Part shown: in pieces, positions 27,183 through 38,640 of the stretch | Numbering within the stretch: position 1 is the stretch's first letter | Layout of the letters: each line of letters starts with the position of its first letter | Origin: Rahnella sp. AA | Lineage (GTDB): Bacteria > Pseudomonadota > Gammaproteobacteria > Enterobacterales > Enterobacteriaceae | Assembly (NCBI RefSeq): GCF_002834385.1 | Contig: NZ_PITQ01000001.1 | Location: 434,001 to 498,000 of the forward strand | Length of the DNA: 64,000 nt | Reading direction: 5' to 3' | Notes under the pieces: generated by a model | Told to the model about the DNA's origin: nothing | Database searches by the model: none | What the model saw: the letters and a program-made list of their open reading frames with translations, nothing else | Position numbers and translations under genes: made by a program

Positions 27183-28061
27183 TTACTTCCCGCGTGAGGC
27201 GGTCCAGCACAACAGCGAGCCGCCGACCACCATCAGCACACCCGGCCAGAAACTTGCGCCCGGCAGCGTGTGCAGCCACAATCCGGCAATCACAATCGAT
27301 GACAGCGGCGTGAAATACGACAGCGCCGCGACCAGTGTCGCATTGCCTTTTTTCATCGCCAGATCCCAGCACTGATAAGAGATTGCCGTCACCGCCCCCA
27401 TTGCCAGTAACTCAAGAATGGCCGGTAATTTCAGGCTGATCCGGTTCGATGAATAGGTGAAATACAGCACCCACAGCACAGCACCGGTCGCCAGCAAAAA
27501 CAGCGGCAGCACGCCTTTGCCTTTACACAGTATGCGGACCAGATTGGAATACAGTGCCCACGACACCGCCGCGCCCAGCGCCAGACTGTAGGCTACCGGA
27601 TTGCCACGCACATTACGCATCAGCTGATGAATATCCAGCCCGTGACCGCCACTGATCGCCCATAACACACCGATAAAAGCCAGCACGACGCCCGGCCAGA
27701 TCCACCAGCGCACCCGCAGTTTTAATAACGGAACGGCAAAGAGCAACGTCAGGCTCGGCCAGAGATAGTTGATAAGCCCGAGTTCCAGCGTTTGCTGGCG
27801 GGTATGCGCCAGACCAATCGCCAGCGAAAACGCCACCATATAAAAGACAAACAGCAGGCCACAGACGATCAGATAAGACGCAGATTCTCCGCGCAGCGAC
27901 GGTTTCCCGCCCGCCATCCAGACCATAATTCCACTGACGGTATAAATTGACGCGGCGGCACCGAAAGGCCCCAGCGATTCAGACAGGCTGCGGGTGAGCG
28001 CCACGCTCATGCTCCACAGCAAAATAGCGAGAACGCCAAATAGCGTAGCAAAACGATCCAT
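27183..28061 (-). CDS. yddG: DMT-superfamily exporter resembling aromatic amino acid exporter YddG
   Basis: The 292-residue protein has ten predicted membrane helices in two EamA halves. Whole-length similarity to YddG is visible: FGVLAILLWSMSVALTRSLS, a NYLWPSLTLLFA segment (YddG has NYLWPSLTILFA) and the ending MVVGGSLLCWTASR. YddG exports phenylalanine, tyrosine, tryptophan and some toxic cations in E. coli. The match in conserved segments is good but not enough to fix the substrate, so the symbol is provisional. A ribosome site lies close upstream. It is downstream of the outer-membrane barrel gene, separated by a hairpin, and may not belong to the catabolic cluster. Confidence 0.75.
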   Translation of the reverse strand: MDRFATLFGVLAILLWSMSVALTRSLSESLGPFGAAASIYTVSGIMVWMAGGKPSLRGESASYLIVCGLLFVFYMVAFSLAIGLAHTRQQTLELGLINYLWPSLTLLFAVPLLKLRVRWWIWPGVVLAFIGVLWAISGGHGLDIHQLMRNVRGNPVAYSLALGAAVSWALYSNLVRILCKGKGVLPLFLLATGAVLWVLYFTYSSNRISLKLPAILELLAMGAVTAISYQCWDLAMKKGNATLVAALSYFTPLSSIVIAGLWLHTLPGASFWPGVLMVVGGSLLCWTASRGK

Positions 28062-28162: not shown

Positions 28163-29038
28163 TTAAAAATAGAAACCGACTTCGAGACCCAGTGTGGACG
28201 TGGTGGTCGCAGGCTGGTAATAGCCGACGGTGCTTCCGTTCAGGTCGCCCTGTTTCTCGTCCGATTTACCGTATTTCTGGTGCACATAGCTGGCTTTCAC
28301 AAAGACATCTTTGTTGATATTCCAGGTCAGGCTGGTAAAGGGCGCAAGCTTTGATTTCGGCTCCAGCCAGACCGCGCCCTGATTGCTGTGCGTCCAGGTT
28401 TTAATCGGGTACAGCGCGCCGCCTTCCAGGCTCAGTCGTGAATCGTCGGTCAGTTGCCAGTTTGCACCGAGCGAGGCTTTGGCATATGGCTGCAAAGACA
28501 CTTCAACCGCGGTGTATTGTCGTGTGGCGTTTTCAGAGGCTATATACACGTTGTCAGAACGGATATTTCGCAACCAGACCTGGCCACCGAGCGCACCTTT
28601 CATATCGAAAGAAACGCTGTCGGATGCCCGGTAACGGTAGCCGCGAGTCATGTCCGCGCTGTAGCCGGTGTAATAGGTTTTCCCTTTCAGCGTTCCGTTC
28701 GGCACATTGGCCTGATCGTCAAGCGTACTGCCTTTATAATTGACGATCCCGAACATAACGCTCATGTCCCAGGCTTTTAATAAACCTTCTTTGGCATCGA
28801 GATAATTATTAGATCCGAAATTAACGCGCAGGCGCGGGCCATGTTCAGCAACATATTTACCGTCCATATTATCGACGGTTTCGTCCCACTTATAATATTC
28901 AGCACCATAACTGACATAGTGCCGCATCCCTTCAGTATTATTGCTTAACAAACTTTCCCCGGCCCGGGAAACCCCGGAAACCAATAAAGAGCTCGTGACC
29001 AGCAGGCTGGATACGGTCTTTAATTTACTCATTGTCAT
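28163..29038 (-). CDS. Outer-membrane beta-barrel protein, possible porin
   Basis: The 291-residue product has a Sec signal peptide (about residues 1-26, likely cleavage after GVSRA) and a mature part made of alternating amphipathic strands. It ends in LGLEVGFYF, with the terminal aromatic residue expected by the BAM machinery. I do not recognise the family: it does not resemble KdgM/NanC porins, OmpF-type porins or OmpT in its visible motifs. It is transcribed in the same direction as the sialidase-like/anomerase unit but 334 bases further on, behind a region with four copies of a 12-base motif, so it likely has its own regulated promoter. By position it could be the outer-membrane entry route for that pathway's substrate. 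That role is inference. Confidence 0.72.
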   Translation of the reverse strand: MTMSKLKTVSSLLVTSSLLVSGVSRAGESLLSNNTEGMRHYVSYGAEYYKWDETVDNMDGKYVAEHGPRLRVNFGSNNYLDAKEGLLKAWDMSVMFGIVNYKGSTLDDQANVPNGTLKGKTYYTGYSADMTRGYRYRASDSVSFDMKGALGGQVWLRNIRSDNVYIASENATRQYTAVEVSLQPYAKASLGANWQLTDDSRLSLEGGALYPIKTWTHSNQGAVWLEPKSKLAPFTSLTWNINKDVFVKASYVHQKYGKSDEKQGDLNGSTVGYYQPATTTSTLGLEVGFYF

Positions 29039-29166
29039 TTTTTATTTCTACTTGCAGGTGGATGGAGCTGGTTGCTTAGTAAGCAATAAGGCGATGCTAA
29101 TGAACCGGAGGGGATAGATAAAGTAATTTATCGTTTTTTAAGAAAAAATCGATCTTTTGATCTGTG

Positions 29167-29314
29167 TTAAGTCAAATTAATGGATATATATAAGATGTAT
29201 TTGATTTATAGTCTGTATATTAGTTTTGTTATTTGACTTAATTTGTAGATCTTTGATCGGATAATTTGACTTAAATAAGGTTTTTATTGCTGGTTAAATA
29301 TTAATTTGTCTTAA
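29167..29314 (-). repeat. Four copies of AATTTGACTTAA upstream of the barrel gene
   Basis: Copies lie at 29167-29178 (exact, inverted), 29231-29241 (ATTTGACTTAA), 29263-29274 (exact) and 29303-29314 (AATTTGTCTTAA). Centre spacings are about 64, 32 and 40 bases, close to whole helical turns. They fill most of the AT-rich 334-base gap 29039-29372, which holds no gene. A multi-site operator for an unidentified regulator is the simplest reading. Confidence 0.65.
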
Positions 29315-29372
29315 GGAGTATAGCCGGTTTTCACACCGGCAAATATATTTTACTTAAGTAATGCTTATTGAG

Positions 29373-30062
29373 TCACAAGGACGCACCGCCACAAATGACT
29401 AATTGTTGACCGGTAATGGCGGCCGCTGAAGGAGTGAGCAAATAGCAGATTAAATCGGCGACTTCCTGTGGCTGAATAAAGCGCCCAATCGGCGGTAATT
29501 TAGGGGGGGAGCTTTTGCGCTGTGGATTATCCAGCATGGGCGTTTGCGTCGCGCCGGGTGCCACGATATTCACGGTAATTCCGCGCGGTGCCAGCTCCGC
29601 CGCCCAGCTTCTCGCCATCCCGATCATGGCCGATTTGGTCGCGACATACTGGCTGCGACCGGCAACGCCTGCAGACGTGCGGCTGCCAAGCAATACGATG
29701 CGACCGCCATCGGGCATCTTATCCACCAGCCGGTCGGCCAGTACTTCGGCAACGCCAATATGCAACTGCCACAGCGCCGCGCTGGCCTGCGTATCCAGCT
29801 GCCCCAGCGGTGCCGCTTTCATCATGCCTGCCGCGTGGATCAGCGCGTCAACGGCGGGCAGTGTTTCCAGCAGTGCGGTCAGTTTTGCCGTATCGGTGAT
29901 ATCGAGCGAGATTCCGCTGAAATTAGCGTGCGGGAAACTCACCTCCCGGCGCGCAAGCCCGGTGACCTTCCAGCCCTGTGCCAGCAATGTCAGGCACACC
30001 GTTTCGCCGATACCGGAACTGCAACCGGTCACCAGCGCATGTCTGACGGGAGTCTGATTCAT
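29373..30062 (-). CDS. SDR-family oxidoreductase
   Basis: The 229-residue product is a classical short-chain dehydrogenase: cofactor motif TGCSSGIG at residues 13-20, the NAG-like HAAGMM, catalytic Ser in LLGSRTS and the YVATK catalytic pair, then PGATQTPM. The Arg residues just after the first strand (LARREV) suggest NADP preference. The substrate is unknown. It is the last gene of the minus-strand catabolic unit, 3 bases after the YhcH-like gene. In a deoxy-ulosonate pathway it could reduce the aldehyde or keto acid released by the aldolase, in competition or series with the Fe-type dehydrogenase. Confidence 0.85.
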   Translation of the reverse strand: MNQTPVRHALVTGCSSGIGETVCLTLLAQGWKVTGLARREVSFPHANFSGISLDITDTAKLTALLETLPAVDALIHAAGMMKAAPLGQLDTQASAALWQLHIGVAEVLADRLVDKMPDGGRIVLLGSRTSAGVAGRSQYVATKSAMIGMARSWAAELAPRGITVNIVAPGATQTPMLDNPQRKSSPPKLPPIGRFIQPQEVADLICYLLTPSAAAITGQQLVICGGASL

Positions 30063-30065
30063 GAT

Positions 30066-30545
<480 letters not shown>

Positions 30546-30550
30546 CTAAT

Positions 30551-30576
30551 TAAAAAGGCCCGCGGTAAGCGGGCCT
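30551..30576 (-). terminator. Intrinsic terminator between the sialidase-like gene and the anomerase gene
   Basis: On the minus strand AGGCCCGC and GCGGGCCT (8-bp stem, 5-nt loop, 30556-30576) are followed directly by TTTTT. It lies 8 bases past the sialidase-like stop and 15 before the next start, so it should lower expression of the two downstream genes or mark an operon boundary. Confidence 0.8.
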
Positions 30577-30583
30577 GCGGGGA

Positions 30584-31762
30584 TCAGCCTTTTACCCAGG
30601 ATTCATCGACGCAGACGTATTTGATCGCCTGACGGTAGTAGGTGAAGGCGATATGCAGTTCACCGTTCAGCCCCTGTTTGATGCTGGGATAAGAGAATTC
30701 GCGGTTCAGTTTTTGCTGCGAATTGTTGGTCATGCAGTAGCCGTCGCCGGTTTCCAGGTCCCGCTGGTGCGGCCATGTGCGGCCACCGTCCTCAGAAATC
30801 GCCAGCGTCATCGGCGCACGCGGTGCGCCCCAGAACGCGCTGCGACCGCCGGTTTCCACCGGTGTTTCAGCCCGCGCATCGTCTTCTTCATCTTCAATTT
30901 CATCATACAAAGACGCACGACGTTCACTGGCATCTGCCGCGCTCATCTTGTTAAACACCAGCGCCAGATGGCCGTTGGCGAGCGTGGTCACCTGTATGGA
31001 CGAATTATTATTGGGCAATTCCGTTGGCTGCGGCGCACTCCACGTATTGCCGCCATCGACCGACCTGCTCTGGTAGATAAAGTCTGCCCAGCGGCTGCGG
31101 TACAGCGCCAGCAGGCTGCCGTCGTGCAGCGGCGTAATATTCATGTGTACGCAGCCGGTGCTTTGCAGCACAGCGACATCGCGCCAGCTTTTGCCTTTAT
31201 CGCTGGAAATTTTGACCGCGCTGTCATCATTGTTGCCGACCCATTTTTCACCGGGTTGCGTCCGGCAATAAAACACCGGCAGCAGCCAGTCGCCGTTCGC
31301 AAGTACCGTTACCGGCTGGCGAATAAACGTGCCGGGCTGACCGAGCAGCGTGCCAATTTCGCCCCAGCTTTTGCCCAGATCCTGCGACTGACGGAAACGC
31401 ACAATCGCGGTGTCCTGATTCCCCGATTTCTGCGCGGTGTACATCAGCCAGAGCACATTATCAGGGGCGAGAAACAGCACCGGATTCTGTTCGGAACGGC
31501 TGGCATCCTCGGAGAGTTTTACCGGTTGGCCCCAGACCTGCGCACCTTTTTCCAGGCGTGACAGATAAATCGAGATATCCGCAATCCCTTCCTGAGTTCC
31601 GGCAAACCACGTACACAGCAGGCTGCCGTCGGGCAAAGGCAGAAGATTGGCGGCATGATTTTGCGGACAATCAGACGGCAACATGGCGTCCCGACGTGCG
31701 GTGTCGTTTTCCGGAATGTGGACTCTTCCGCTGCGTTCGACGGTTAGCGTTTCAGTGGTCAT
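30584..31762 (-). CDS. Cytoplasmic sialidase-fold (BNR repeat) enzyme
   Basis: The 392-residue protein is a six-bladed sialidase-type propeller of the BNR_2 kind. Four Asp boxes are visible: SQDLGKSW (126-133), SSDKGKSW (186-193), SVDGGNTW (234-241) and SEDGGRTW (323-330). The C-terminal block REFSYPS then AFTYYRQAIKYV is typical of this subfamily. There is no signal peptide and no obvious FRIP motif of secreted sialidases, so it works inside the cell and need not act on sialic acid. An unusual acidic loop (DEIEDEEDD, about 286-294) interrupts a late blade. Its gene starts 2 bases after the symporter stop, so import and processing are coupled. Hydrolysis of a glycoside of a 2-keto-3-deoxy acid is the favoured guess. 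Confidence 0.82.
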   Translation of the reverse strand: MTTETLTVERSGRVHIPENDTARRDAMLPSDCPQNHAANLLPLPDGSLLCTWFAGTQEGIADISIYLSRLEKGAQVWGQPVKLSEDASRSEQNPVLFLAPDNVLWLMYTAQKSGNQDTAIVRFRQSQDLGKSWGEIGTLLGQPGTFIRQPVTVLANGDWLLPVFYCRTQPGEKWVGNNDDSAVKISSDKGKSWRDVAVLQSTGCVHMNITPLHDGSLLALYRSRWADFIYQSRSVDGGNTWSAPQPTELPNNNSSIQVTTLANGHLALVFNKMSAADASERRASLYDEIEDEEDDARAETPVETGGRSAFWGAPRAPMTLAISEDGGRTWPHQRDLETGDGYCMTNNSQQKLNREFSYPSIKQGLNGELHIAFTYYRQAIKYVCVDESWVKG

Positions 31763-31764
31763 CT

Positions 31765-33180
31765 TTAAGCTCCAGACTTTTGAATAATTTGTGCATTTTT
31801 ACTTTTCACGTTGCGCTGAGGGATCAAGCGGTCAATCACCATGATGGCGGCCGGAGTGACCAGCGCGATGTACATATTGTTGATACCAAAAGGATCACCC
31901 AGCACGTACCACACTGAGGTTACGACGCAGGCACCAATCAGGCCGGCATTTGCACCGCGTGCACTTTTGAAAAACGGCAGGTAGAAAGCCATGACCGCGA
32001 CCACGGAAATTGAGAGGCGGATTGCGCGGGTGAAGAAGGAGAGTTTCAGCACTTCCGGCACCAGCAGTACAAAAATCAGCGGCAGGAAACCAATCAGCAG
32101 CGACAGCCAGCGGGTCATTTTGAATTCGCGCTCAGGCGTCGGATTGCGGTAAGGCACATAGAAATCTTTCACAATCAGCGAAGCGATAGCCAGCGCCACG
32201 GTACTGACGCTGACGAAAATCGATGCCACCAGCGACGTGGTCACCAGGCCCGCCAGCCACGGATTCATGTCCTGAATAAAGACCGGCAGCGCGTACAGGC
32301 TGTTCATGTCCGGATGCAGGAATTTCGCCGCCACGCCGATCATGCCAATCGCCAGCGCAATCGGTACGCAAAAGAAGAATGCGACCCAGGTTGCACGCTT
32401 GGCGGATTCCGCGCTTTTGGTGGAGGAAATGGCCTGAATGACGAATTGCGTACAGAAAATAGAACCGATGGTGCCGATCAGCCAGGCGAAGATGGTGCTG
32501 GCGCCGACGCTGCCGTCCCATGTCCAGTAGAAGTCAGGCATCTCTTTGACCATCGGCATTACGCCACCGGTCATGTGCAACGCGATACCTAAAATCACCA
32601 GTACGCCGATGTACTTGATAGCGCTGTGCAGCATCGTCACCCACGCCATGCCTTTCATGCCACCGAACGCGAAGTAGAACGTACTAACGACTGCGGTGAT
32701 AAAGGCTGCCACCGGCAGATTGACTTTCAGCACCGTGGAAATAGCCGCAGCGCCGCTCACATAGTTCCCGACGTTCACCAGCAGCAGGGCGTAAATCATG
32801 ATGATCGAAATGATATTTTTGGTGGTATTGCCGTACTTCTCGGCGATCGCACCGGAAATCGTGATTTTGCCGGTGTTATAAATGCGTTTGACCAGCAAAA
32901 TCCCAAAAATCGGGAAGCCGATGGCCGCACCCAGAATCGACCATGACGCCGCAAAACCGGTTTCGAAAGCCGCCTGCGCCGTCCCGATGGTAGATTTTGC
33001 GCCGATATATTCCGACATCAGCAGCACGCCGACGATAAACGCCGGCATCGCCCGCGAGCCTTCCATGAAATCGCCGCTGGTTTTGCTGCGTAACCGGTAC
33101 GTCAGCCAGGTAGTGAACAGGATGTAGGCGAGCACAATGCCAATAATAATTAACGTATCTGATGAGCTAAATTCTTTCAT
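31765..33180 (-). CDS. Sodium:solute symporter (SSS family)
   Basis: The 471-residue inner-membrane protein has the 13-14 helix SSS layout. GSRAMPAFIVGVLLMSEYIGAKSTIGTAQAA is the helix 1-2 region where SSS proteins bind sodium, and the SVSTVALAIASLIVKDFYVP segment is the conserved helix 8-9 region. SSS transporters include sialic-acid importers (SiaT) as well as proline and sugar carriers; substrate cannot be read from sequence alone. Its place between the aldolase gene and the sialidase-like gene argues it imports the pathway's sugar acid or its glycoside. Confidence 0.88.
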   Translation of the reverse strand: MKEFSSSDTLIIIGIVLAYILFTTWLTYRLRSKTSGDFMEGSRAMPAFIVGVLLMSEYIGAKSTIGTAQAAFETGFAASWSILGAAIGFPIFGILLVKRIYNTGKITISGAIAEKYGNTTKNIISIIMIYALLLVNVGNYVSGAAAISTVLKVNLPVAAFITAVVSTFYFAFGGMKGMAWVTMLHSAIKYIGVLVILGIALHMTGGVMPMVKEMPDFYWTWDGSVGASTIFAWLIGTIGSIFCTQFVIQAISSTKSAESAKRATWVAFFFCVPIALAIGMIGVAAKFLHPDMNSLYALPVFIQDMNPWLAGLVTTSLVASIFVSVSTVALAIASLIVKDFYVPYRNPTPEREFKMTRWLSLLIGFLPLIFVLLVPEVLKLSFFTRAIRLSISVVAVMAFYLPFFKSARGANAGLIGACVVTSVWYVLGDPFGINNMYIALVTPAAIMVIDRLIPQRNVKSKNAQIIQKSGA

Positions 33181-33211
33181 TTTTTCCTCACACAGCGCGT
33201 AGGGGACCCTG

Positions 33212-33233
33212 CCTGCGCACTTTCATGCGCAGG
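33212..33233 (-). other. Intergenic hairpin between aldolase and symporter genes
   Basis: CCTGCGCA and TGCGCAGG form an 8-bp stem with a 6-nt loop and no T-run. It may stabilise the upstream part of the message rather than end it. Confidence 0.5.
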
Positions 33234-33263
33234 TGATCGGTAGATTCGTTCGGTAAGGCGCGT

Positions 33264-34151
33264 TTAGCCGCGCAAATTAAATGCTTTTATGACGGTCAGG
33301 ATCTTCTGTGTATCGTCCTGCGTGAATTCCACCGGATACCGGCTTTCACCCACGTTAAACCCGAGCAGATTCACGGCTTTTTTAACCACGGCCGGCGAAA
33401 ACGCAATGCTGTACAAATCAGTGCGGATCTTATTGATGTCTGCCTGCACCGCTTCGGCGGCGGCAGCGTTGTTTTCCTGCAGATGGCGGTAAACGGCGTT
33501 CACCTGTGCGGGGATAATATTGGCGATACCGGAAATACAGCCGGCGCTGCCTTCGGTGAAACCACGATAAATCAGAGAGTCCGGCCCGGTCAGTACGTCA
33601 AAATCAGTAAACTGGCGGCTGACTTCATGGAAACCGTGCAGGCTCTCATAAGAACCAGCGCTGTCTTTAATCCCTCTGATATTAGGGTGATCGGCCAGTA
33701 CGCGTACCACATCTGGCGTCAGCGTATTGCCGGTTCTGGCCGGAATGTTGTAGAGATACACCGGCACTGTCAGCGCATCCGCGACGGCGCGGAAATGCGC
33801 AATCAACTCCTGCGGACGCAGCGCCGCAAACCACGGCGTAATCACTGACACGGCGCGCACGCCGAGTTTTTCAATCTGTTTTCCCAGACGAATGGTGTCG
33901 CGGGTAGAAATCTCGCCGACATGTGACATCACGCCGGTGTCATCACCTGCGGCCTCGAGACAAATCTCTGTGACCTGAATTTTTTCCTGCTCGCTGAGCA
34001 TAAAAAATTCGCCGTTGGTGCCGTTACAAAAAATATTATTCCCTGCCTGTTTCTGGCGTTTTACCTGCTGGCGCAAGGTGTCGCCGTCGAGTTTTCCGTT
34101 AGCGGAAAAGGGCGTCACAATGGCGGTATAGACTCCGGTAATATTATTCAT
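33264..34151 (-). CDS. DHDPS/N-acetylneuraminate lyase family aldolase
   Basis: The 295-residue TIM-barrel protein is a class I pyruvate aldolase of the DapA/NanA superfamily. The Schiff-base lysine is Lys162 in GIKDSAG and the catalytic tyrosine is Tyr134 in YNIPARTG; NGTNGEF near residue 43 is the pyruvate-carboxylate loop. True dapA in Enterobacterales lies elsewhere and has GTTGES, so this paralogue is catabolic. The family cleaves 2-keto-3-deoxy acids to pyruvate and an aldehyde, or dehydrates them. It follows the Fe-type dehydrogenase gene by 43 bases. In this cluster it is the likely carbon-splitting step. Confidence 0.88.
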   Translation of the reverse strand: MNNITGVYTAIVTPFSANGKLDGDTLRQQVKRQKQAGNNIFCNGTNGEFFMLSEQEKIQVTEICLEAAGDDTGVMSHVGEISTRDTIRLGKQIEKLGVRAVSVITPWFAALRPQELIAHFRAVADALTVPVYLYNIPARTGNTLTPDVVRVLADHPNIRGIKDSAGSYESLHGFHEVSRQFTDFDVLTGPDSLIYRGFTEGSAGCISGIANIIPAQVNAVYRHLQENNAAAAEAVQADINKIRTDLYSIAFSPAVVKKAVNLLGFNVGESRYPVEFTQDDTQKILTVIKAFNLRG

Positions 34152-34194
34152 TTTATTCTCTTTACGTCGTTGTAATCGGATACGAAATAAGGGG

Positions 34195-35331
34195 TTAACG
34201 AATGCTGCGGTAAATTTCCGCTATTTGATTTTTGTCGACCGGCATCGGTACATTTTTAATTAAACGTTGTACCTCTATTGCCCCCTGCGACAAATAAGGA
34301 ATGTCGTCAGGTGTGATATTCAGCTGGCTTAATTTGACCGGCAAATCCAGGCGATGGACCAGCGCGTCAAAATACTCCACCAGCGCATGGGATTTTTCTT
34401 CTTCACGTAATGTCGGGTCAGCGCCGGGAATTAAGTCATAGGCTTGCGCAAATTTATTCACGGCGGAAGGCCTGACAAAAGCCATACAAGGCGCGAGCAG
34501 AATGGCATTCGCGACCCCGTGAGGAATGTGATATTTGCCGCCGAGCGGATAGGACATAGCGTGAACCAGATGGGTGCCCGCATGGGCAATTGATGCGCCG
34601 CCGTAATATGACGCCCACAGCATATTCAGCCGCGCCTCCAGATTTTCCGGTTCGGCAACGGCCGTTTCGAGGCTTGCAAACAGCTTCTTCATGCCGACCA
34701 GCGCGAAGTTATCACTGACCGGGTTAGCAATGACCGACGTGAAGCATTCGAACAGATGGCACAGAGCATCGATGCCGGTAGACGCCGCGATGCGCGCGGG
34801 CATGCTGGTGGTCAGTTCAGGCACCAGCGCAACATAATCGGGCAGCATGACCGGCGTGATAATGCCTGTTTTGGTTTCCTTTTCGGGGATCGCCAGAATC
34901 GCGTTTGGCGTGGCTTCTGAGCCGGTGCCTGCGGTGGTTGGGATCAGTAACGACGTCGTACGGCGTTGCGGTTTTTCGCCCGCCAGCAGAGTGTCGAGCG
35001 TGACGGTTTCATCACCGGCGCACAAAATCGAAAGCAGCTTTGCGACGTCCAGCACGCTTCCGCCGCCGACGCCAATCACCAGATCGACCTGCGGCTGATT
35101 CAGCGTTTTCAGGATGGCGGCGACGTCATGCTGGCTCGGTTCCGGCGGCACACTATCAATAATGCTCACCTCGCAGCCTGCGTTATTCAGCTGGCCTGTC
35201 AGCGATTGCACCGGCGGCAGGCCAATAATGTTTTTGTCGCTGACCAGCAGAACCTGACGTTTCCCGGCCAGCAAGTAGCCGATGTTCTGTAATGACTGAT
35301 AACCGCTGATGATCGTGCTGTCTATATTCAT
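34195..35331 (-). CDS. Iron-containing (group III) alcohol dehydrogenase
   Basis: The 378-residue product has the Fe-ADH NAD-binding stretch GVGGGSVLDVAKL, TAGTGSEATPNAIL, and the metal-binding histidines in CHLFECF, HAGTHLVHAMSYPLGG and HIPHGVANA. Members reduce aldehydes or oxidise alcohols, often on short polyol or sugar-acid substrates. It is the first gene of the minus-strand unit, divergent from the kinase gene across a 195-base control region with a perfect palindrome. Reduction of a four-carbon aldehyde-acid to threonate would link the aldolase to the kinase; this is inference. Confidence 0.87.
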   Translation of the reverse strand: MNIDSTIISGYQSLQNIGYLLAGKRQVLLVSDKNIIGLPPVQSLTGQLNNAGCEVSIIDSVPPEPSQHDVAAILKTLNQPQVDLVIGVGGGSVLDVAKLLSILCAGDETVTLDTLLAGEKPQRRTTSLLIPTTAGTGSEATPNAILAIPEKETKTGIITPVMLPDYVALVPELTTSMPARIAASTGIDALCHLFECFTSVIANPVSDNFALVGMKKLFASLETAVAEPENLEARLNMLWASYYGGASIAHAGTHLVHAMSYPLGGKYHIPHGVANAILLAPCMAFVRPSAVNKFAQAYDLIPGADPTLREEEKSHALVEYFDALVHRLDLPVKLSQLNITPDDIPYLSQGAIEVQRLIKNVPMPVDKNQIAEIYRSIR

Positions 35332-35370
35332 GCCTGTTTCCTGCCGTCTGAGTCTTTAGTAAGAGTGAGT

Positions 35371-35473
35371 TCAATCATTAAAGATCGACACTCCTCACAT
35401 CGTCAGGGCAATTTATAGGCGAAATTGAAGTTGAATAATTTGAACTTGCTCACATATAATCAATCATGATTGA
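35371..35473. promoter_or_regulatory. Divergent control region with palindromic operator
   Basis: TCAATCATGATTGA (35460-35473) is a perfect 14-base palindrome that begins at the last base of a -10 hexamer TATAAT (35455-35460). TTGAAT (35431-35436) lies 18 bases before that hexamer as a -35. A half copy, TCAATCAT, recurs at 35371-35378 near the divergent dehydrogenase gene, 89 bases away. The DeoR-type regulator encoded at 37882 is the obvious candidate to bind both. Confidence 0.7.
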
Positions 35474-35526
35474 ATATAATCATATCCAGCAAGATTAACC
35501 TGACCTGAATTTTTCACGGAGCCAAG

Positions 35527-36873
35527 ATGGCCGAAACAGCAGCACCCGCAGACTCTCATCACACAGCCGGATTGCTGGTGATTGCCGACGATTTTACCGG
35601 CGCGAATGACACCGGCGTAGCGTTGGTGGCGCAGGGTATGGCGGTTTGCGTGCAGCTTGATGTCACTGATAGCGCGGCAGAAGCCCGCGCCGGTCGCGCT
35701 CTGATTTACAGCACGGACAGCCGGGCCATGAGCGCAACTGATGCCGCGCAGAAAGTTACGCAGGCAGTGCAGGCAGGATTACCCGTTCCCGGTGGGAAAG
35801 GTTGGGTATTCAAAAAGATCGACTCCACGCTGCGTGGGAATCTGGGGGCAGAAACCGAAGCCGCGCTGATGGCGCTTGACTGCCCGCTGGCGATTATCGC
35901 GCCCGCCGTGCCGCAACTCGGGCGTGTGATAAAAGACGGGCTTTGCTACGTGAATGACCGTTTGCTGACAGAAACTGAATTCGCCACAGACCCGAAAACG
36001 CCGGTCAGCACCGCCAGTGTCGGCGGGCGTCTGGCGGAGCAAACGGCGCTGCGCCAGCATCATGTCAGCCTTGAGGTGCTGCGCTCCGCTGATTTTCAGG
36101 CACAGCTTTTTGCACTGGCGGCCTCCGGTGTGCGCATTGTCGTGGCCGACTGCCAGACCCCGGAAGATTTAAATCTGATTATCCGGGCCGCAGAAAGTTT
36201 GCCATTCAGACCGCTGCTGGTCGGCGCTTCCGGCCTGAGCCACGCGCTGGCGCAGCATTGCCTGGCGCCACAAATTTTGCCCCGGCAAACGGCTACACGC
36301 ACAACCGCGCCGTTACTGGCGGTTGTCGGCTCAATGAGTGAAATCGCTGCGCAGCAGATTGCTTTTGTACAACAACGCCGCCCCGTTTCGCTGGTTGATA
36401 TTGACGTACTTCGGCTCTTTTCTGCGGATTCAGGCGAACTACTGGCGGCGCTTTCTGCTGAAATCCGCCATGCCGTCGGGGAGGGCAAACATTGTTTTAT
36501 CCGTACCCGACAGAGTGAAGAGCAGCGGCATTCCGTTGCCCTGTTTTGCCAGCAAAAAAACATCAGCCGCCTGCAAATGGGTGAGCGCATTGCCGCCTTT
36601 CTCGGACAACTGATTCAGCACGTTTTACAACAACCGGAGACAAAACCGGGCGGCCTTTATCTGTCCGGCGGAGATATTGCGCTGGCCGTCGCCCGGGCGC
36701 TGGGTGCGAAAGAATTTGAAATCAAAGGACAGATCGCAGGCTGTGTTCCCTGGGGATTTTTGCCCGACAGCCCGTTTCACCGGTTGCCGGTCATGACCAA
36801 AGCGGGCGGGTTCGGTACTGAAAATACGCTACTTGAAGTTTTACGCTTTATTGAGGAGAAGTTGAGTGACTAA
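35527..36873 (+). CDS. dtnK: DUF1537 four-carbon acid sugar kinase, probable D-threonate kinase
   Basis: The 448-residue product is a DUF1537 kinase: the N-terminal substrate domain has IADDFTGANDTGV and FKKIDSTLRGNLGAE, and the C-terminal ATP domain has GGLYLSGGDIALAV and PVMTKAGGFG. The family phosphorylates D-threonate, L-threonate-derived and erythronate-derived four-carbon acids at O4. A kinase paired with PdxA2 and lacking an LtnD/DenD dehydrogenase or OtnC is the arrangement reported for D-threonate use (DtnK-PdxA2). The start follows CGGAG. It overlaps the next gene by 8 bases. The symbol rests on context. Confidence 0.82.
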   Translation: MAETAAPADSHHTAGLLVIADDFTGANDTGVALVAQGMAVCVQLDVTDSAAEARAGRALIYSTDSRAMSATDAAQKVTQAVQAGLPVPGGKGWVFKKIDSTLRGNLGAETEAALMALDCPLAIIAPAVPQLGRVIKDGLCYVNDRLLTETEFATDPKTPVSTASVGGRLAEQTALRQHHVSLEVLRSADFQAQLFALAASGVRIVVADCQTPEDLNLIIRAAESLPFRPLLVGASGLSHALAQHCLAPQILPRQTATRTTAPLLAVVGSMSEIAAQQIAFVQQRRPVSLVDIDVLRLFSADSGELLAALSAEIRHAVGEGKHCFIRTRQSEEQRHSVALFCQQKNISRLQMGERIAAFLGQLIQHVLQQPETKPGGLYLSGGDIALAVARALGAKEFEIKGQIAGCVPWGFLPDSPFHRLPVMTKAGGFGTENTLLEVLRFIEEKLSD

Positions 36874-37846
36874 AATTATCGCAGTAACCATGGGTGATCC
36901 TGCCGGTATCGGCCCTGAAATTATCATTAAAGCGTTAGCTGAAGGTGAGCTTTCCGGCACACCGGCGGTGGTGGTCGGGTGTGCGGCGACTTTCCGCCGG
37001 ATCCTGGCGCTCGGCGTCACGCCAGCCGCTGAACTGCGCATTATCGATGAAGTTTCACAGGCGCATTTCGCGCCGGGTGTGATCAACGTGATCGACGAGC
37101 CGCTGGCGGATCCGCAAGCGCTGGTACCCGGGAAAGTGCAGAAAGAAGCGGGAGATCTGGCGTATCGCTGTGTGAAACGCGCCACCGAACTGGCGATGGC
37201 CGGGCACGTTCATGCCATCGCCACTGCGCCTCTGAATAAAGAAGCCCTGTATTCTGCCGGGCATATTTATCCGGGCCATACCGAGTTGCTGGCAAAACTG
37301 ACCCACAGCCGCGACTACGCGATGGTGCTTTACACCGATAAACTGAAAGTCATTCATGTCAGTACGCACATCGCCCTGCGTAAGTTCCTTGATACGCTGA
37401 ATCACGAGCGCGTGGAAACCGTGATTCAGATGGCAGACACGTTCCTCCGTCGCGTGGGTTATGAAAACCCGCGCATCGCGGTGGCGGGTGTGAATCCGCA
37501 TGCCGGTGAAAACGGACTGTTCGGCGATGAGGAAATTAAAATTGTCGGGCCGTCGGTTGAAAAAATGAAAGCCAAGGGCATTAATGTCACCGGACCTTGC
37601 CCGCCGGATACCGTGTTCCTGCAAACCTACGAAGGGATGTATGACATGGTGGTGGCGATGTATCACGATCAGGGGCATATTCCGCTGAAACTGATGGGGT
37701 TCTATGACGGCGTGAACATTACGGCGGGCCTGCCATTTATCCGGACGTCGGCAGACCATGGCACCGCATTTGATATTGCGTGGACAGGAAAAGCCAAGTC
37801 TGAGAGCATGGCAATCTCCATACAGTTAGCCGTACAGTTGGCGTAA
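36866..37846 (+). CDS. pdxA2: PdxA2-type 4-phospho-D-threonate dehydrogenase
   Basis: This 326-residue paralogue of the vitamin B6 enzyme PdxA keeps the three metal-binding histidines: His168 in HVSTHIAL, His212 in [11 protein letters not shown] and His267 in [10 protein letters not shown]. PdxA2 proteins oxidise and decarboxylate 4-phospho-D-threonate to dihydroxyacetone phosphate and CO2. The pairing with a DUF1537 kinase, with overlapping reading frames, shows it is the catabolic form; the biosynthetic pdxA lies with ksgA/surA elsewhere in enterobacteria. The start is GTG after TGAGGAGAAG. Confidence 0.87.
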
Positions 37847-37881
37847 TCTTACGCCAGCGGCGCAAGGAAAAAGGAATCACG

Positions 37882-38640
37882 TTGACCGGACAAAGCCGTC
37901 TCGATCAGATTATGGATTATCTGAAAAGCCATAATCTGGTCACCGTCGAACAGCTGGTTGCCGCCATTGCGGCATCACCCGCGACCATCCGCCGCGACCT
38001 GATAAAACTGGACGAGCAGGGCGTCATCAGCCGCAGCCACGGCGGCGTGACGCTCAACCGTTTCATCCCCAGCCAGCCGACGACCAATGAAAAGCTTCAG
38101 CGCAGCCTGCAGGAAAAACAGGCTATCGCCGAAGTTGCCGCTGCCATGGTAAAACCGGGCGATGCCGTTGTTCTCGATGCGGGTACCACAATGCTCGAAC
38201 TGGCACGCAATCTGACCCATTTGCCTTTGCGGGTGATCACCGCCGATTTGCGTATCGCACTGTTTTTGTCGGAATTTAAACAAATCGAAGTGACCATTAT
38301 TGGCGGGCGTATCGACGACAGCAGCCAGTCGTGCGTGGGCGAACATGGCCGCCGGTTGCTGCGCAGCGTCTATCCGGATATCGCGTTTATCAGTTGTAAC
38401 TCGTGGAGCCTGGACAAAGGCATCACCACGCCGACAGAAGAAAAAGCCGGGCTCAAGCAGGATCTTGCCGCTAACGCGCGCCGCCGGGTGTTGCTGGCTG
38501 ACAGCAGTAAATATGGTGCGTACTCGCTGTTTTGCGTCATGCCGCTGACCGGGATGACTGACATCATTACCGATAAAGGTCTGAACGTCGAAATCCGGCA
38601 ATCGCTCGACGATCAGCCGTTTACGCTGACGCTGGCCTGA
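37882..38640 (+). CDS. DeoR/GlpR-family regulator of the cluster
   Basis: The 252-residue product has a DeoR-type N-terminal helix-turn-helix (about residues 6-58, with [17 protein letters not shown] then SRSHGGV) and a C-terminal sugar-phosphate-sensing domain with [11 protein letters not shown]. It probably represses the divergent units and responds to a phosphorylated intermediate such as phospho-threonate. The start is TTG, preceded by AAGGAA; no ATG or GTG fits the family N-terminus. It is the third gene of the kinase operon, 35 bases after pdxA2, and is followed by a terminator. Confidence 0.88.

Follow-up and report, generated by a model that had tools for sequence, protein, structure and literature searches.

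A Rahnella gene cluster that appears to join a pyruvate aldolase to D-threonate catabolism: a candidate pathway for a 3-deoxy-2-heptulosarate such as Dha

We analyzed a 64,000-nucleotide stretch of the Rahnella sp. AA genome (assembly GCF_002834385.1, contig NZ_PITQ01000001.1, positions 434,001-498,000; hereafter the window), which carries at window positions 28163-38640 two divergent gene units that may together degrade a 3-deoxy-2-heptulosarate by way of D-threonate. Gene classes were assigned with Pfam and NCBIfam profile searches, and identity calls were judged against NCBIfam equivalog cut-offs. The named open reading frames (ORFs) are all intact, and the gene classes and positions agree with those given in an earlier reading of the DNA letters alone (the original prediction). 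Five core genes flank a 195-bp control region with a conserved operator (35332-35526). On its plus-strand side lie dtnK, for a D-threonate kinase of the DUF1537 type with SBD_N and NBD_C domains (35527-36873), pdxA2, for a D-threonate 4-phosphate dehydrogenase (36866-37846), and a gene for a DeoR-family regulator (37882-38640). The minus strand encodes an iron-containing alcohol dehydrogenase (Fe-ADH; 34195-35331; PF00465/PF25137), which we propose to be a D-threuronate reductase, and a pyruvate aldolase of the dihydrodipicolinate synthase (DHDPS) family (33264-34151; PF00701). Beyond these, on the same strand, are genes for a sodium:solute symporter (SSS, or SSF; 31765-33180; PF00474) proposed to import an acid sugar, a beta-propeller enzyme with a sialidase fold (30584-31762; PF13088, BNR_2), a YhcH/NanQ-family protein (DUF386; 30066-30536; PF04074) that is probably an anomerase opening the ring form, and a short-chain dehydrogenase/reductase (SDR; 29373-30062; PF13561/PF00106).

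We found that the kinase and PdxA2 both pass their NCBIfam equivalog cut-offs (NF047819, 515 bits against 450; NF002891, 667.7 bits against 583), and because they do, we conclude that the right half is, as judged from these profiles, a D-threonate pathway, as originally predicted. In this family, DtnK and PdxA2 convert D-threonate to dihydroxyacetone phosphate (DHAP) and CO2, a form of D-threonate catabolism by a DUF1537 kinase and PdxA2 that Zhang et al. reportedly described in 2016. The closest relative of the kinase in the PDB is 4xfm (421 bits), and PdxA2 matches 6e85 (E = 3e-173). The solved kinase 4xfm/4xgj, which we take to be the D-threonate kinase of the 2016 work, differs very little along its whole length from the DtnK encoded in a Pectobacterium version of the cluster (L104).

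The aldolase belongs to the DHDPS/N-acetylneuraminate lyase superfamily (PF00701, 197 bits), with the family profile, the Schiff-base lysine, the tyrosine and the GxxGE motif all present. An alignment with E. coli DapA and NanA places these at Lys162, Tyr134 and GTNGE, together with Arg139 in the motif YNIPARTG. The protein reaches neither the nanA equivalog cut-off (121.4 against 382) nor that of dapA (184.9 against 206.15). Arg139 is kept in all 32 aligned aldolases; by pattern its equivalent is found in 89 of the 91 called aldolases, and also in L101 (as ARTG), the exception being a paralogue of 32% identity. DapA shares this arginine (YNxPxRTG), whereas in alignments NanA has leucine (PALSG) and YagE and YjhH also lack it. 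When seven of the eight aldolase paralogues of the same genome were compared, a matching arginine was seen only in L002 and in L003, the genome's separate dapA-like gene. In DapA the arginine binds the partner substrate, the C4 aldehyde acid aspartate semialdehyde, by its carboxylate; by analogy, the conserved Arg139 fits an acid-aldehyde product. The Fe-ADH has lactaldehyde reductase, 1,3-propanediol oxidoreductase and 4-hydroxybutyrate dehydrogenase among its relatives and reaches no equivalog cut-off.

We searched named genomes with the aldolase and obtained at least 557 relatives, of which the best 80 were used. Two E. coli loci, a locus on a Pantoea plasmid and the window itself bring the set to 84 loci, which are related by descent and not independent (L094 and L095 come from one strain). 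All five core genes are present in 76 of the 84 loci, clearly the opposite of two halves that never occur together. In none of the 76 do they take up more than 6.2 kb, and in 75 they are consecutive, the odd one being a Mixta locus (L091). Eight loci are incomplete: L036 is without DtnK and DeoR, L069 without a called Fe-ADH, L098 without a called DtnK, L076, L078 and L109 without the kinase unit (L078 begins at Fe-ADH), and L094 and L095 without DeoR. The two halves also recur in distant lineages with other gene orders. Azospirillum has kinase, PdxA, Fe-ADH, aldolase, SSS and sialidase in that order, while Agrobacterium, where the annotation includes a GntR regulator, and S. meliloti have kinase, Fe-ADH, PdxA, an exo-alpha-sialidase, a peptide-type ATP-binding cassette (ABC) transporter and the aldolase. 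A genome of the same class (L175) carries in a row the aldolase, Fe-ADH, kinase, PdxA2, a 2-hydroxyacid dehydrogenase, a major facilitator superfamily (MFS) transporter, SSS and sialidase, with no DeoR relative. The core set, together with parts of tripartite tricarboxylate and tripartite ATP-independent periplasmic (TRAP) transporters, is also present in one genome of the same phylum (L174) and in two small ones of the same order (L179, in which a separate kinase ORF was not called, and L180).

The association is also seen at the level of genomes. Among 246 genomes of the family, in which the aldolase was called at E<=1e-60 and PdxA2 at E<=1e-110, 35 have the aldolase, 60 have PdxA2 and 34 have both; that is, PdxA2 occurs in 34 of the 35 aldolase genomes and in 26 of the 211 others (Fisher p=3.6e-24, kinship ignored). 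In the one aldolase genome without a PdxA2 match (G236), an aldolase stands beside a kinase at a contig end (L181). Aldolase and PdxA2 are no more than 6 kb apart in 32 of the 34 genomes that have both. We examined the PdxA2 neighbourhoods of 17 of the 26 genomes that have PdxA2 and lack the aldolase, and found a KdgT-type permease with DtnK/PdxA2 in all 17, as against 2 of 83 aldolase loci (L052 and L091). These permeases are 39-100% identical to the copy in L154 (PF03812, 415 bits), which falls short of the 2-keto-3-deoxygluconate transporter cut-off (291.3 against 453.8); given their context, they would import D-threonate. The Mixta locus L091 is a hybrid, with a KdgT-type permease, DtnK, PdxA2 and DeoR beside a short Fe-ADH ORF, the aldolase and SSS. 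No sugar-acid dehydratase was found upstream of the separated aldolase loci L076, which has a regulator, an SDR and an ABC transporter there, and L171, which has iron-uptake, peroxidase and peptidase genes instead.

The control region offers a further link between the two locus types. It contains an exact TGATT-N6-AATCA site (35467-35482), which we propose as the DeoR operator, and next to it on the minus strand a sequence match to TGTGA-N6-TCAAA (35439-35454), presumably a CRP-like site. With at most one mismatch, the operator sequence is present in all 77 divergent FeADH/DtnK control regions, and it also occurs within 1.9 kb upstream of DtnK in all 17 of the aldolase-lacking KdgT-type loci examined, 16 of which encode a DeoR relative 71-85% identical to that of the window. 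The 10-mer ATGTGAGCAA, tied to the CRP-like site, occurs in 64 of the 77 control regions. The bare pattern is non-specific, with five matches in the window at up to one mismatch against 2.5 expected, and the operator argument holds because the position is conserved and not because of site counts. The Rahnella genome has 17 exact sites, one of them that of the cluster; among 7 of the 16 others, no further regulon member with a link to pectin was found, and three of the seven lie upstream of a gene (for a 729-aa protein without a Pfam match, a sugar MFS transporter and a Wza-type polysaccharide export protein). The regulator itself is assigned to the DeoR family by NCBIfam models and falls below every equivalog cut-off.

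These data suggest that one DeoR regulator senses the D-threonate route and, as a putative repressor, controls both divergent units, which is the simplest reading of the shared sites. Because the operator is common to both locus types, and KdgT-type permease and aldolase are nearly mutually exclusive, D-threonate seems to reach the pathway in one of two ways, through import or through synthesis by aldolase and Fe-ADH. The cluster thus shares with KdgT-linked D-threonate catabolism an equivalog kinase and dehydrogenase, a similar DeoR-type regulator and an identical operator sequence; it would differ in that D-threonate is made inside the cell rather than imported. Together, the co-occurrence, the shared operator and the recurrence in distant lineages uphold the original view of the two halves as one system, and a coupling of the aldolase/Fe-ADH unit to D-threonate catabolism is, on these genomic grounds, well supported.

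What substrate would such a system use? Because retro-aldol cleavage by a pyruvate aldolase and reduction of the aldehyde must end in D-threonate, stereochemical bookkeeping alone requires a 4,5,6-trihydroxy-2-oxoheptanedioate with D-threo configuration at C5/C6. The atom balance fits, and of the possible isomers 3-deoxy-D-lyxo-2-heptulosarate (Dha), a sugar of rhamnogalacturonan II (RG-II), and its C4 epimer (D-xylo) qualify, while the D-arabino and D-ribo forms do not. Cleavage of 3-deoxy-D-manno-octulosonate (Kdo) would give arabinose and not threonate. The stereochemical argument by which Dha had first been proposed is therefore correct as bookkeeping; what stands of the assignment is a 3-deoxy-2-heptulosarate with D-threo C5/C6, and C4 is left unfixed, the epimer fitting equally well. 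From the gene content, the co-occurrence, the common operator and the near exclusion of permease and aldolase, we propose the following scheme. The transporter would import the free or conjugated acid sugar, and the sialidase-fold enzyme and YhcH would supply its open keto form. The aldolase would then cleave the heptulosarate to pyruvate and D-threuronate, a C4 aldehyde acid, which Fe-ADH would reduce to D-threonate for conversion by DtnK and PdxA2 to DHAP and CO2, both units being under the predicted control of the DeoR regulator. We think it probable that the substrate is a C7 3-deoxy-2-ulosarate, and on balance we favor the fuller statement that the locus serves to break down a 3-deoxy-2-heptulosarate, for which Dha is the leading candidate. 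Dha itself leads the candidates, at slightly less than an even chance.

The genes that would deliver the substrate vary more than the core. In a census of the 84 loci, made by gene clustering with Pfam on selected members, we found two exchangeable front ends. Module A consists of SSS, sialidase-fold enzyme, YhcH and SDR; exactly this set occurs in 33 loci, several partial forms exist, and the sialidase-fold gene is present in 57, the window included. Module B, which the original prediction, with its single sialidase-type front end, did not foresee, consists of an MFS transporter and a 2-hydroxyacid dehydrogenase, with or without a PF04199 cyclase, and occurs alone in 24 loci, where it replaces the sialidase module, and alongside module A in six. 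The genes beyond the aldolase in many loci had first been expected to encode a TRAP transporter; Pfam identifies them as MFS and 2-hydroxyacid dehydrogenase. One may speculate that module B imports a C2-reduced form of the sugar acid. Two Gilliamella loci with like flanks, L108 (module B) and L111 (SSS, sialidase and YhcH), present a cassette swap. SLC13/CitMHS and TerC genes occur in seven loci (three Escherichia, three Klebsiella, one Brenneria) and a TRAP transporter in three Vibrio loci; TRAP parts and TctA/TctC also occur in distant loci. Judged by family, these SLC13, TRAP and tricarboxylate transporters favor a di- or tricarboxylate substrate; SSS is uninformative on this point. The annotation of E. 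coli UTI89 gives the cluster's TerC-family gene a frameshift (L213:5593-6343), a mark that the copies of other strains in L034 and L035 do not bear.

Within module A, YhcH and SDR are accessory genes: the SDR is present in the SSS module of many, not all, loci, and without a clear step for it the statement that every gene class has a place proved too strong. The YhcH protein, 36% identical to E. coli NanQ, scores above the cut-off of the TIGR00022 subfamily model (94 against 45.5) and below that of the N-acetylneuraminate anomerase equivalog NF040884 (90.1 against 160). The predicted model of the sialidase-fold protein (pLDDT 86.5), in which no signal peptide is seen, has GH33 sialidases as its best PDB matches (1wcq_C, Z 37.5 over 309 aa, root-mean-square deviation 2.1, 18% identity). 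Canonical sialidases use an arginine triad, a Tyr-Glu nucleophile pair and an Asp acid/base. In profile alignment this canonical set was not found: an invariant H206 stands where NanB/NanC have the conserved Glu, and E58 falls at the Asp position in a weak 8-bit stretch. R222 is aligned, H36 at the first Arg is extrapolated, and R315 and Y358 are assigned by motif. As far as the model goes, the 30584-31762 protein is sialidase-like in fold, as predicted, and no canonical sialidase. It matches 5mqr, which we take to be BT1020, the GH143 Dha hydrolase of RG-II, in a weak profile alignment of 45 residues only (E=0.09); a glycosidase acting on a Dha conjugate would be a guess.

Genomic context points to a link between the aldolase and pectin. 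GH28 pectinase genes are found in 23 of the 35 aldolase genomes, as against 33 of the 211 without aldolase (p=3e-9) and 4 of the 26 with PdxA2 only (p=1e-4; kinship ignored in both). The neighbourhood comparison called for at the outset gave a near-constant association of the aldolase with the kinase/PdxA2 pair and a pectin link at genome level; GH28 directly adjoins the cluster in just 4 of the 84 loci, all Pantoea/Erwinia (L056, L089, L097 and L110; two identified by Pfam and two by clustering). According to passages of PMC12282258, PMC12168206 and PMC10762512, side chain D of RG-II contains Dha, as do prasinophyte (green algal) scales, and a passage of PMC9960968 lists it by mass in a Hibiscus drink. 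Among titles from literature searches, which covered part of the matches and left most subscription journals outside, none names a microbial route for Dha use. We tentatively suggest, as a possibility that we would not put at even, that the cluster is the first Dha catabolic pathway, found in Proteobacteria from plants, guts, marine habitats and humans and in as many as one in five complete E. coli genomes, in which one aldolase/Fe-ADH/D-threonate core can be supplied by either of two front ends (a His-substituted sialidase-fold enzyme with an anomerase, or a 2-hydroxyacid dehydrogenase). If the sugar is Dha, this would perhaps be the first described microbial way to use a rare pectin component.

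Several observations weigh against this scheme or its Dha form. Aldolase and PdxA2 are apart in two genomes, by 58 kb in one and on different contigs in the other, and in a Roseomonas locus (L118) Fe-ADH, the aldolase and a hydroxyacid dehydrogenase stand in a stretch that has neither kinase nor PdxA. In Azospirillum both the kinase (114.5 against 450) and PdxA (288.7 against 583) score below the D-threonate cut-offs, and the distant aldolase of L175 has Lys in place of Arg139. The best PDB match of Fe-ADH is a methanol dehydrogenase and its best NCBIfam match the regulatory protein ErcA, so its relatives do not fix the direction of the reaction. The 24 loci with module B alone, without a sialidase-fold enzyme, are not explained by Dha alone, and neither MFS (of the galactonate-transporter subfamily, below cut-off) nor the peptide-type ABC transporter is informative on a diacid. 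The C4 epimer would give the same product as Dha. GH28 is missing from 12 of the 35 aldolase genomes, no RG-II-specific enzyme was found among the cluster neighbours put to Pfam, and to our knowledge the E. coli that carry the cluster are no known pectin degraders.

Some of these points suit a scheme with the same logic in which Dha is incidental and the natural substrate is another diacid yielding D-threuronate. This could be 3-deoxy-D-xylo-2-heptulosarate, the C4 epimer, or else a 3-deoxy-heptarate reduced at C2, which the 2-hydroxyacid dehydrogenase would have to oxidise first. The freedom at C4, the replacement of the sialidase module by 2-hydroxyacid dehydrogenase and MFS (or tricarboxylate transporters) in many loci, and the Gilliamella pair that differs just in its front-end cassette all agree with it. 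The sialidase-fold enzyme of the window and the other loci that have one, however, suits a cyclic ulosonic-type sugar, and the four sets of passages cited above name no natural 3-deoxy-2-heptulosarate other than Dha; we consider another diacid unlikely, though worth keeping in view. Less probable still is that the aldolase yields a different aldehyde, such as D-threose or a longer aldose, that Fe-ADH or SDR oxidises, D-threonate arising indirectly. The direction of neither enzyme can be read from sequence, and Fe-ADH has, besides methanol dehydrogenase, the Kdo 8-oxidase 5k8c as a distant relative (E=5e-14); yet the core is without an aldehyde dehydrogenase, the SDR is dispensable, Fe-ADH has close relatives in lactaldehyde reductase and 1,3-propanediol oxidoreductase, and the conserved Arg suits an acid aldehyde.

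We regard as very improbable that the locus serves sialic acid or Kdo, with the D-threonate genes kept for another purpose. The sialidase fold, the NanQ relative and the NanA-related aldolase recall the E. coli nan operon (NanA-NanQ-transporter), which likewise combines a transporter, an anomerase relative and a pyruvate aldolase of the superfamily. Here, however, neither protein reaches its nanA or anomerase equivalog, PARTG replaces PALSG, NanE and NanK are absent among the cluster genes, as predicted, the product would lead to D-threonate and not to N-acetylmannosamine, and the D-threonate unit is tied to the aldolase while Kdo would give arabinose. We give equally little credence to vitamin B6 repair, in which DUF1537 and PdxA2 would recycle 4-hydroxythreonine into the pyridoxal 5'-phosphate (PLP) pathway. 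In its favor, section 14 of PMC12928451 (2026, PLoS One) assigns the E. coli pair to PLP synthesis, and a passage of PMC10971088 has Salmonella STM0162 phosphorylating 4-hydroxy-L-threonine. Such repair would leave the aldolase, Fe-ADH, transporter and sugar enzymes of the divergent unit unexplained, and PdxA2 scores as a D-threonate 4-phosphate dehydrogenase.

The E. coli copy corresponds to genomic region 6 (GR6; nagE-glnS region) of extra-intestinal strains, for which section 14 of PMC12928451 suggests a role in PLP metabolism and draws a comparison with S. meliloti, naming no substrate. The core genes are the same (L034, L035 and L213 in detail), the difference being that E. coli has an SLC13 permease and TerC where the window has SSS. 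DNA matches to the window's cluster occur in 1044 of 5426 E. coli genomes; in a sample taken down the ranking, 39 of 40 include the aldolase and sialidase genes, the weakest covering dtnK/pdxA2 only. If the proposed pathway is true, it would give a function to this conserved region, now guessed to serve vitamin B6 metabolism, and would explain an internal source of D-threonate; given a five-gene core and a candidate for both regulator and operator, a few assays could put the question to the test. The proposed chemistry has a parallel in the HpaI route, in which 4-hydroxy-2-oxoheptanedioate is cleaved to pyruvate and succinate semialdehyde and the latter reduced by 4-hydroxybutyrate dehydrogenase to 4-hydroxybutyrate. 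These are equal reaction types on a 5,6-dideoxy analogue (C7 2-oxo-diacid to pyruvate and C4 aldehyde acid, then to C4 hydroxy acid), although the NCBIfam models match the cluster below cut-off (126.1 against 396.7; 193.4 against 500).

The aldolases fall into groups. The closest named relatives of the window aldolase, among the matches listed, are from Rahnella (94%). The Rahnella type is 53-60% identical to the aldolases of other family genomes, whereas SSS there is 76-88% identical, and a group of 66-87% identity (Rouxiella, Tolumonas, metagenome-assembled genomes) sides with Rahnella; from these identities, one cluster type seems to be served by two aldolase types. When a viral collection was scanned with the Agrobacterium aldolase, one contig came up (L183); it encodes a relative of the rhizobial enzyme (86%) and is perhaps a mis-binned chromosomal piece.

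The cluster is flanked by what we take to be acnB-yacL and speD-speE-cueO. At its left end, on the minus strand, lies a gene for a secreted, probable outer-membrane protein (28163-29038), as read by eye from a signal-peptide-like start and a terminal Phe. The original prediction counted this barrel as part of the system. It has no Pfam match up to E=10, the KdgM/NanC porin family included, and a best PDB match of just E=0.68; these searches gave no support to a KdgM-like porin identity. Of 108 loci, the window and the Rahnella rivi locus (L039) alone have this gene, a Rahnella-specific neighbour in the loci seen, outside the conserved system. The adjoining EamA-family transporter gene (window 27183-28061) has relatives in just two of the other 107 loci, L039 and L162, and is probably unrelated to the cluster. 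In Symbiopectobacterium a hydantoinase/oxoprolinase pair (PF01968/PF05378 and PF02538; L055:14961-18849) follows the cluster, and ORFs of like size are present in L116.

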